This document shows, piece after piece, positions 52,094 to 54,313 of a stretch of DNA of 64,000 bases (the first letter of the stretch is position 1; the number at the start of each line of letters is the position of its first letter). A program made the translations under genes and the position numbers. Origin of the DNA: Crocinitomicaceae bacterium (lineage in GTDB: Bacteria; Bacteroidota; Bacteroidia; Flavobacteriales_D; Crocinitomicaceae); assembly GCA_023957475.1 (NCBI GenBank), contig JAMLHA010000008.1, positions 62,001 through 126,000 of the forward strand. The letters are read 5' to 3'. The notes beneath the pieces were generated by a model. That model was not told where the DNA came from. It saw only the letters and a program-made list of their open reading frames with translations, and made no database searches.

Positions 52094-52126
52094 TAAAAAA
52101 GAGGGCGTTCCATTTTGAACACCCCC
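52094..52126 (-). terminator. Terminator of the PspC/PadR operon
   Basis: GGGCGTTC (52103-52110) and GAACACCC (52117-52124) form a stem with one C-A mismatch. On the minus strand it is followed by TTTTTTA (52100-52094). It lies about 40 bp after the PspC stop at 52165. Confidence 0.65.
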
Positions 52127-52164: not shown

Positions 52165-53709
52165 TTAACGATAATGTTTGTAGCTACCATCAGGCTTTAA
52201 TTTTCCTTTTTGAATCCATCGTTCTTCATCTTCTTCTTGATTGTTTTGTTTTGTTAAATCAATGGTGTAATCATCAATTTTAACGGTTTTACCTTGAGGT
52301 ATGTAGATGACTAATTCCAAACTTTGTCTTCTGAATTTGTCTGATTTTGGATAATTTAAAAACGATGAAATGTGTAAAGAATCGCCTTTCACTTCATAAG
52401 GATAGTGAATGTTTTCTGCACGTTTTACTGCTTTATCTAGAGAAAATGCTTTTGCTTCTTTGATAATGTTTACGTGGTACAAACTATCCTTAGAAACTTT
52501 GTATTTAATTGAAATATCTGATTTGTAAATGCGATCATTACTGATGTAGATGTCCCATGTATTACTAGATTTCACCGTATAATCATTGCTTGTAGAAAGT
52601 ACATTGCTTTTTGTTGTTAAAACCAATTGTGGAGTATGAATGGTTTCAACTTCTTTTTCAATTTCTCCTTCGATGGAATAATCGCTACCAACTCTTGTGA
52701 AAACGATCATTCCTATCACAAATCCACAAATTGAAAGGAATATAAGTGATGCATTGATGTATCTTGACCATCTATTTTTTAAGTTAAACAACAAAACAAA
52801 TCCACCAATTAGAAATAACAATACAATTGGAATGGAAGTGAAGTAAAAACTCAACCATGCAAGTTGAACATCGATAGGATTATCAACTATAAGACTAGCT
52901 AGAGATGTGAATGAAAGAAAACCACTTTCAGTATTTGCTGGAATAATTTGCGGTTTTCCAAAAATGATACCAATGAATGTTATCAATAGAACTAACCCAA
53001 TAAATGAGAAAAATAAACCAAAAATAACAGCAACAGTGCGTCTTATTGAGTGATAAACCGTTCGAATTTTACCAGAATCTTTTATGTTGTTGGCAAAATG
53101 ACGAGATTTTTCAGATATGTTTTTAGCGGCACGATCAACCTCTTCCTTTACTGTATCAACGTTTATAGGCTGACCTTTCATTTTTAATCGATCAATAGAG
53201 CTGGTAGCTTTTGGAATGATAATCCAAAGCAAGATGTATAAAAAGAAACCAACCCCACCAAATAAGATTGCAAGAGCCCATACAATTCGGATGATTGTAA
53301 CATCAATAGCAAAATAGTTGGATAAACCAGAGCAAACCCCACCAATGTAGGATCTTTCAACGTCACGGTACAAGTGTTTCTCATTCGATTTTTGGTCTTG
53401 CGTATCATTTTGCTTGTGAGAGGAAGACTCCGAATAATCTGCATCTGAAGTAGCAAAATCTGATGGATCACCAAGAGTATTTAGTACTTCTTCAACATCT
53501 TTTAGCTCAATGATATTTTTTGACCCAGTAATTTTTTTGCTCAATAGTTCGGCTATACGAAGTTCGATATCTTCAACAATATCTTCAGCACCATCTTCAT
53601 TTTTTAAGATAGATTCCAAACGCTTTAAATAAGCGTCTAATTGCAAATAAGCATCCTCCTCAATTACAAAGGGAGTACCTTTTATGTGTATAGAAATAGT
53701 TTTTTTCAT
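52165..53709 (-). CDS. PspC domain envelope-stress protein
   Basis: A 514-residue membrane protein from ATG 53709 (MKKTISIHIKGTPFVIEEDA); an upstream ATG at 53745 would overlap padR. Residues 1-95 are a cytoplasmic helical region found in flavobacterial PspC proteins (LKRLESILKNEDGAEDIVED). The PspC domain at about 113-170 has YIGGVCSGLSNYFAIDVTII and FLYILLWIIIP. Several membrane segments follow (about 240-350), then a beta-rich domain of about 130 residues (VRQSLELVIYIPQGKTVKID-like). It probably senses or resists membrane stress. It follows padR by 4 bp, so expression is under that repressor. Confidence 0.92.
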   Translation of the reverse strand: MKKTISIHIKGTPFVIEEDAYLQLDAYLKRLESILKNEDGAEDIVEDIELRIAELLSKKITGSKNIIELKDVEEVLNTLGDPSDFATSDADYSESSSHKQNDTQDQKSNEKHLYRDVERSYIGGVCSGLSNYFAIDVTIIRIVWALAILFGGVGFFLYILLWIIIPKATSSIDRLKMKGQPINVDTVKEEVDRAAKNISEKSRHFANNIKDSGKIRTVYHSIRRTVAVIFGLFFSFIGLVLLITFIGIIFGKPQIIPANTESGFLSFTSLASLIVDNPIDVQLAWLSFYFTSIPIVLLFLIGGFVLLFNLKNRWSRYINASLIFLSICGFVIGMIVFTRVGSDYSIEGEIEKEVETIHTPQLVLTTKSNVLSTSNDYTVKSSNTWDIYISNDRIYKSDISIKYKVSKDSLYHVNIIKEAKAFSLDKAVKRAENIHYPYEVKGDSLHISSFLNYPKSDKFRRQSLELVIYIPQGKTVKIDDYTIDLTKQNNQEEDEERWIQKGKLKPDGSYKHYR

Positions 53710-53713
53710 AATA

Positions 53714-54040
53714 TTAATTGTTAGTGATTTTATTGACTGTTGCACTTAATTCGAGCCATGTTTCATTGAGTGCTTTTAAAAATTCATTCCCTTTTTCGGT
53801 CGTTGAAAAATATTTCCTCGGCGGACCAGATGTTGATTCTTCCCAGCGATAAGTGAGTAATTCGGCATTTTTTAGTCGTGTTAGCAAAGGGTAGAGTGTG
53901 CCTTCAACAACGATTAACTTAGCTTCTTTCAATTCTTCAAGAATTTCTGAAGGATATGCCTCTTTTCTTTTTAATATCGATAGGATGCAGTATTCCAAAA
54001 TTCCTTTCTTCATCTGCGCTTGTGTGTTTTCGATATGCAT
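53714..54040 (-). CDS. PadR family transcriptional repressor
   Basis: A 108-residue winged-helix regulator with the PadR hallmarks KGILEYCILSILKRKEAYPS, LIVVEGTLYPLLTRLKNAEL and TSGPPRKYFSTTEKGNEFL. It is encoded immediately before the PspC gene. A dyad in the promoter region upstream is a probable self-regulatory operator. The start ATG at 54040 is used; an internal ATG in QMKKGIL would shorten the protein by nine residues. Confidence 0.94.
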   Translation of the reverse strand: MHIENTQAQMKKGILEYCILSILKRKEAYPSEILEELKEAKLIVVEGTLYPLLTRLKNAELLTYRWEESTSGPPRKYFSTTEKGNEFLKALNETWLELSATVNKITNN

Positions 54041-54059
54041 TTTTCATTGTTTTATAGGA

Positions 54060-54091
54060 CAAAGATATAAAATAATTATAATACTATGCAA
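54060..54091 (-). promoter_or_regulatory. Promoter of padR-pspC (TTG-N21-TATCTTTG)
   Basis: On the minus strand TATCTTTG (54067-54060) is a perfect -7 box. TTG (54091-54089) is 21 bp upstream and lies at the centre of the PadR dyad. Confidence 0.6.
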
Positions 54092-54102
54092 TACATAGTA
54101 CT
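54080..54102. promoter_or_regulatory. Candidate PadR operator dyad
   Basis: TACTATG (54082-54088) and CATAGTA (54094-54100) are perfect inverted repeats around CAATA, and A54080/T54102 also pair. The centre coincides with the -33 TTG of the padR promoter, so binding would block RNA polymerase. PadR sites commonly carry ATGT/ACAT half-sites. Confidence 0.55.
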
Positions 54103-54282
54103 AATTTTTTTATTTTTTTGATTAATTGACATTATGACATTATGATTTTGTGACGTTATGATTGATTGAAAGGAAACTCATAAATCATGTTTTTTCAATT
54201 AGTCAATAATTCATCCCATCAAAAAAAATCTCAGGTAGTGAATATATTATTTCGAATCATTCTAAATAATAAAGATATTTCG

Positions 54283-54290
54283 TACCTTTG
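54283..54290 (+). promoter_or_regulatory. -7 box (TACCTTTG) of the sufS operon
   Basis: A perfect TAnnTTTG box, 23 bp before the sufS ATG at 54314. No TTG at -33. Confidence 0.55.
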
Positions 54291-54313
54291 CAGATAAATT
54301 AAACAATCAAACA

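Follow-up and report, generated by a model that had tools for sequence, protein, structure and literature searches.

The perfect dyad TACTATG-N5-CATAGTA found upstream of padR in the window (the whole stretch of 64,000 nucleotides that was analysed) very probably serves the PadR protein as a switch for turning down its own operon, since nearly all of the padR relatives that were checked carry this dyad at the same position. The complete reading, to which we assign a probability of about 0.86, is that the dyad is a putative operator of the adjacent PadR-s2 repressor, acting by occlusion of the -33 promoter element and thus by autorepression, with a likely input from the HAAS-PspC membrane protein encoded by the second gene of the operon.

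The dyad and the padR-pspC operon

The features of the locus are as follows.
52101-52126, minus strand: intrinsic-terminator-like stem-loop 3' of pspC, the likely operon end (4 such patterns there against 1.1 expected)
52165-53709, minus strand: pspC-like membrane protein of 514 aa with HAAS, PspC and toast-rack domains, its ATG 4 nt past the padR stop
52225-52539, minus strand: toast-rack domain PF22744, aa 391-495
53206-53379, minus strand: PspC domain PF04024, aa 111-168
53452-53634, minus strand: HAAS domain PF22564, aa 26-86, with the GxP motif G80-D-P82
53714-54040, minus strand: padR, 108 aa, PadR family, the sole PF03551 match in the genome
54060-54067, minus strand: -7 promoter element TATCTTTG, of the TAnnTTTG form that is the sigma-A -7 box in flavobacteria (PMC9723704, in part)
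54079-54103, no strand assigned: wider inverted repeat spanning the operator, with 10-nt arms, 90% complementary, and a 5-nt spacer
54082-54100, minus strand: predicted PadR operator dyad TACTATG-N5-CATAGTA, of the form TACT-N11-AGTA; perfect, and conserved upstream of orthologues
54089-54091, minus strand: TTG, the -33 promoter element and dyad centre, N21 from TATCTTTG

An earlier note on this DNA had placed the dyad over the TTG of a TTG-N21-TATCTTTG promoter driving padR-pspC, and this arrangement was confirmed: the 7-N5-7 dyad occupies 54082-54100 with its centre at 54091, and the TTG runs from 54091 to 54089. The -33 TTG is a promoter element of the phylum. Read on the minus strand, 54100 to 54082 is TACTATGTATTGCATAGTA, followed after 14 nt by TATCTTTG, downstream of which lies the padR ATG at 54040. 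A scan with sigma-70 promoter patterns returned 10 of them, against 11.2 in shuffles. The element conserved in the relatives extends one base further in both directions, GTACTATG-N5-CATAGTAC; at the flanks of the window dyad the outer G is kept and the outer C is replaced by T.

Since pspC begins only 4 nt after padR and is followed by the terminator-like stem at 52126-52101, the two genes have the appearance of a two-gene operon. The genome holds two PF04024 matches, pspC being one of them, and the PspA of the classical Psp system was not found there (PF04012 had 0 matches, in a search that was positive in 9 of 14 control genomes). The divergent neighbours encode a class-V aminotransferase (SufS-like), SufE and an iron-sulphur assembly protein. 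A separate 13-nt inverted repeat, TATTATTTCGAAT / ATTCTAAATAATA, 92% complementary and with its arms 1 nt apart, lies at 54245-54271, immediately upstream of the TACCTTTG box that belongs to the SufS-like gene. Two loci of the same genus as the window (L123 and L133) have a similar TTATTTAGAACGAATCGAAACAA at the equivalent place, and the repeat may be an iron- or cluster-responsive operator.

The earlier note had also proposed to scan the genome for further sites. In the 3,141,131 bases the dyad is the sole match with 0 or 1 mismatch, and 10 other places have 2 mismatches. These 11 sites at up to 2 mismatches compare with 23 for the reversed-pattern control, so the weaker genomic sites are not enriched and none is claimed as a target; the idea of a regulon beyond the padR-pspC operon was dropped on the same count. 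Within the window itself, 3 matches at up to 3 mismatches were found against 2.5 expected by chance, and thus only the perfect match is unusual there. The circuit appears to have essentially one target in its own genome.

Conservation of the dyad upstream of padR

The best 80 of 506 padR relatives, with identities of at least 67%, formed the first sample. A whole-locus scan found at least 11 matches to the 14 dyad positions in 77 of these 80 loci, the misses being L009 and L048, which have 9 and 85 nt of upstream sequence, and L054, which has 557 nt and a 10/14 site with a -7 box. The 74 distinct aligned sites from these best 80 of 506 loci have the consensus AGTACTWTGTATTRCATARTAC; one base accounts for 98-100% of the sites at seven of the 14 dyad positions and for 97% at an eighth, while columns -25 to -3 all stay at or below 0.54 bits. 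The best-kept positions in this sample include the outer TAC/GTA arms, which lie beyond the promoter boxes.

In the second sample, 200 genomes of the window's family, padR was detected (E<=1e-10) in 119 genomes at 124 places. A strict 21-nt pattern matched 65 of the 200 genomes, and its reversed control none of the 200. Its 66 sites comprise 64 by padR, one at a contig end (G068) and one extra in G047. The operator-plus-promoter pattern matched 80 of the 200 (one match for the control), and of its 81 sites 78 are by padR, two are contig-end cases (G068 and G050) and the last, G101:C1, is apparently a chance match. Either pattern occurs within 250 bp at 91 of the 124 padR places. The remaining 33 include two gene fragments at contig starts, which were left out (G128:C199 and G139; the other part of the G128 padR, on C161, has the site). 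Among the 31 inspected, 26 have both TAnnTTTG and 11-13/14 matches, two are truncated at a contig end (G186 and G050, the expected site of the latter being found at the end of another G050 contig) and three are without a site. In total, the site is present at 117 of 120 testable padR places. The three misses are a 42% paralogue (G020:C7), a 40% paralogue (G033:C36) and a 58% copy in G071, whose padR lacks several invariant residues (Q8, G12, L55, P73 and G83 in A2 numbering, by eye). Two same-genus genomes, G013 and G033, have the site at 12/14, and in G185, with two padR copies, there is a site for each. Only G068 was matched by either pattern among the 81 family genomes lacking a padR match; its site is near a contig end, and the first padR codons can be read before the contig stops.

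Two loci of this family sample deserve separate mention. The G071 locus (L140), which combines a padR short of otherwise invariant residues with no clear operator, is perhaps a natural decayed padR/operator pair. The extra site in G047 (L150:3001-3060, at G047:C2:331117) is a second operator copy followed by a TATATATTTG box, and precedes a gene that by eye resembles a secreted alpha/beta hydrolase; the contig-end case aside, no other strict-pattern site in the family sample lies apart from padR.

The third sample covered 296 genomes of the phylum with a padR threshold of E<=1e-15; padR was found in 70 of them, all belonging to the window's class. Upstream regions were taken for 38 of the 70 (every one, G336 excepted, that belongs neither to the commonest family, f6, nor to the window's own), in addition to two paralogues. 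We then pooled 144 regions of at least 90 nt, namely the window, 78 of the best 80 of 506 loci, 27 of 29 family orthologues and the class regions, after dropping L009, L048, L147 and L148 as too short and L128, L134, L192 and L193 as paralogues, and sought sites up to 1600 nt upstream. The search of orthologues that the earlier note had called for thus found the dyad present: 137 of the 144 regions, which are interrelated and include some redundancy (128 distinct 50-mers, with some genomes in two samples), have at least 11/14 matches, one of them (L176) by a distant chance match only, with 10/14 at the expected place. At least 11/14 matches combined with TAnnTTTG at the right distance were seen in 129 of the 144. 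Shuffles of the full-length regions (mean 1402 nt) reached 11 in 35 of 720 cases and shuffles of the last 200 nt in 21 of 1440, with the box in 0 of 720 and 0 of 1440, respectively.

The regions below 11/14 are L054 and L187 (both at 10, with a -7 box), L140, L163, L168, L178 and L188, and eight regions reach 11/14 without TAnnTTTG at the expected distance (L063, L079, L161, L169, L171, L172, L173 and L176). The operator is weak or altered in family f8 (7 regions), where L163, L168, L178 and L188 have 9-10/14 and L176 has 10/14. The PadRs of the first four of these loci read LLNRLK and not LLTRLK. A joint change of PadR and site is possible in these four; as a general link between the operator and the recognition helix (LLTRLKN to LLNRLK) it was not retained, the cases being too few and L174 having the N with a near-normal site. 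In L175, tandem dyads lie 39 bp apart upstream of padR. At 40-42% identity, the paralogues L128, L134, L192 and L193 make up a second clade of PadRs. They lack the full dyad; half-sites are present upstream, TACTATG in L128, L134 and L192 and CATAGTA in L193.

In Flavobacterium and some other relatives padR is not the first gene of its operon, and there the dyad lies some 450-1500 nt upstream of padR, ahead of DUF4870, TM2, DUF2807 or DUF4440 genes; 9 of 10 scanned proteins interposed between dyad and padR gave a domain match, and DUF2807 is a Toastrack model (PMC11237479, in part). The proposal that the dyad serves padR's operon is upheld by its conservation upstream of the orthologues and at the same time widened, as the dyad often precedes genes that come before padR and would be the operator of the operon and not of padR alone.

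The PadR and PspC proteins and the probable input

The 108-residue PadR scores 63.9 bits against PF03551 (cut-off 27) and has the length of a PadR-s2 protein, residues 1-107 aligning to PDB entry 5h20 (E 2.7e-40, with an identical VEGTLYPLLTRLKN segment) and residues 8-105 to 4esb and 4esf. We take 5h20 to be BF2549 of Bacteroides fragilis, reportedly the subject of a study by Lee, Kim and Hong in 2017, while 5dym is presumably cdPadR1. Two loci whose PadRs are close to 5h20 by eye, L181 and L182, have the operator at 13/14 and 12/14. The two signature wHTH tyrosines of the PadR-s2 type are present as Y28 and Y49 (A2 numbering, which omits the start codon and is one below that of the protein); they are invariant in 42 PadRs, are Y in five PDB chains and would be equivalent to the LftR tyrosines of PMC6457526 (in part). 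The same 42 aligned PadRs, two paralogues included, have E45-G-T-x-Y49-P-L, R54-L-K, G71 and P73-R-K-Y invariant, and E45-G-T-x-Y-P-L and R54-L-K belong to the recognition-helix region of PadR.

An operator of the same form has been described for cdPadR1, a PadR-s2 protein of Clostridium difficile R20291 that binds TACT(N11-12)AGTA in its own promoter in EMSA; cdPadR1 requires this motif, which has an AT-rich core and carries GTACTAT at the left arm, and autoregulation was proposed (PMC5050560, in part). The dyad at 54082-54100 likewise is TACT-N11-AGTA in the promoter of its own PadR-s2 regulator. The two systems differ in reach and partner: the cdPadR1 motif is reported at some 200 other genomic places and cdPadR1 itself is linked to stress and antibiotic response, whereas the window has one perfect site and a HAAS-PspC partner. 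The autorepressors LmrR, LadR and PadR, with ATGT-N8-ACAT operators (PMC3506622 and PMC4517056, each in part), resemble our case in that a PadR-family repressor acts through a dyad operator located in its own promoter or in that of a target, but the sequence is another one, as ATGT-N8-ACAT and ATGT-N10-ACAT, the canonical PadR operators, have no match in 54041-54313.

Ravi et al. 2024 propose HAAS-PadR, found with PspC/Toastrack, as a signalling pair that is an alternative to two-component systems (PMC11237479, in part). As far as that part goes, the pair and the window agree in having a membrane protein that combines HAAS, PspC and toast-rack domains encoded beside a standalone PadR, in the lack of pspA and in the GxP motif; its description of HAAS-PadR names no operator or promoter, and a putative operator is supplied here for padR-pspC. 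The HAAS domain of the window protein scores 30.7 bits (cut-off 27), and the padR gene adjoins it. We aligned 64 PspC proteins, the window's and 63 from the best 80 of 506 loci, leaving out 17 that were cut, odd in their start or near-duplicates. In this set the PspC domain was found in 64/64, toast-rack in 63 and LiaI-LiaF-TM in 59, the last not being reported for the window's own protein in the same domain scan. Pfam HAAS was detected at E<=0.001 in only 45 of the 64, and G80 and P82 of its GxP are invariant in all 64. The AlphaFold model of the window's PspC protein (mean pLDDT 84.4, pTM 0.58) places helices at 18-35, 41-59 and 69-79 before the GxP, which agrees with the three-helix HAAS described in PMC11237479 (in part). 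When this model was compared with the PDB by Foldseek, nothing matched at E<=0.001, and 155 matches were obtained at E<=10.

PadR might bind the dyad and yet respond to a small-molecule ligand lodged in the pore of its dimer, a reading that gains some plausibility from the PadR-s2 relatives LmrR and LftR, both described as ligand-responsive (PMC6457526, in part). We consider it possible but distinctly less probable than an input from HAAS-PspC, since the two-gene operon includes no efflux pump, the co-transcribed partner of padR is the HAAS-PspC protein itself, and the PspC domain and GxP are present in all 64 aligned proteins, the window's and those of 63 of the best 80 of 506 loci. Relief of repression through the HAAS-PspC membrane protein is thus the probable input, as its domain content and the published pair suggest, and an envelope-stress role may be attributed to padR-pspC on the same grounds.

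Promoter geometry, mechanism and meaning

The distance between the start of the dyad and TAnnTTTG is nearly fixed: in 142 sites with at least 10 matches it is 33 nt in 93, 31 nt in 18, 32 nt in 14 and 26-29 nt in 6; the other 11 lack the box. The earlier description of a dyad centred on the -33 TTG holds in the window, and the position holds in the relatives, whereas the TTG itself stands at the dyad centre in only 83 of 128 distinct sites. As the -33 position is kept more strictly than the TTG, it is the operator that appears to be selected and not the promoter element, and with 45 of 128 sites lacking a central TTG the occlusion at -33 may be a matter of position and not of the TTG element.

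A variant in which the dyad acts in concert with a second PadR site some 51 bp further downstream, repression coming from cooperative binding or looping across the -7 box and not from simple occlusion, is unlikely. A dyad of at least 10/14 occurs at exactly +51 in 10 of 128 distinct downstream regions (other offsets reach at most 3, and the upstream control at most 1), and the cdPadR1 promoter has two sites as well (PMC5050560, in part); however, the window has no second site, and 9 of the 10 regions are labelled Flavobacterium, so that shared descent may explain the fixed offset. The second operator was accordingly rejected as a general feature, being absent in the window, lineage-bound and confined to part of the set. 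L070, L071, L075, L032 and L057, together with five other loci, show the weaker dyad at +51; AGTACT half-sites occur near +47 to +49 in Fluviicola and similar loci, and the window shows neither. It is very improbable that the conservation merely reflects a promoter in which TTG and TATCTTTG are conserved for the sake of RNA polymerase and the symmetry arises by accident: the site does overlap the -33 position, and conservation extends to the -7 box and its spacing, but many of the best-kept bases (TAC, TG, CA, T and the outer G and C) fall outside the TTG, the TTG is missing in those 45 sites, and among the 81 genomes without a padR match the site occurs only in the contig-end case G068.

The operator reading suggests the following mechanism. 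A PadR dimer bound at 54082-54100 would cover the -33 element of the padR-pspC promoter and block RNA polymerase; with the polymerase blocked by PadR the operon would repress itself (negative autoregulation) and be held at a low level. The PspC/toast-rack part would sense membrane trouble, upon which the N-terminal HAAS would contact PadR and release or change it, and expression of the operon would rise as PadR is loosened under stress. Repression by PadR at the dyad is well supported as a prediction from sequence conservation, and the binding may be likened to that of cdPadR1. What the sequences themselves show is the site, its geometry, its conservation and the fact that it occurs together with padR; binding, occlusion and repression in the window, and signalling through HAAS, we infer.

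The predicted operator is an unusually well-conserved example of a known operator type in a known operon type, binding of cdPadR1 to TACT-N11/12-AGTA having been shown in print and the HAAS-PadR pair having been proposed there. A bolder and much more tentative view is that of a nearly single-site circuit across a class of the Bacteroidota, an alternative to two-component systems with HAAS-PspC-toast-rack as the sensor arm and PadR as the DNA arm, in which the operator is fused to the -33 position and repression is tuned. The operator is kept across families whose PadRs fell to about 57% identity, and 122 of 128 distinct operators show one or more departures from the ideal 16-position dyad, as if, within such a circuit, repression were tuned and not maximal. 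Selection against perfect dyads was considered and set aside: 6 of the 128 are perfect at 16/16 against 13.75 in column shuffles, but the variance test is unconvincing, with 0.12 of permutations as low, and the counts stand uncorrected for the relatedness of the sites.

An operator with nearly fixed promoter geometry, present in culturable flavobacteria, offers a concrete DNA target for testing PspC-PadR signalling, and the motif may be used for annotating the padR-pspC operon across the class.
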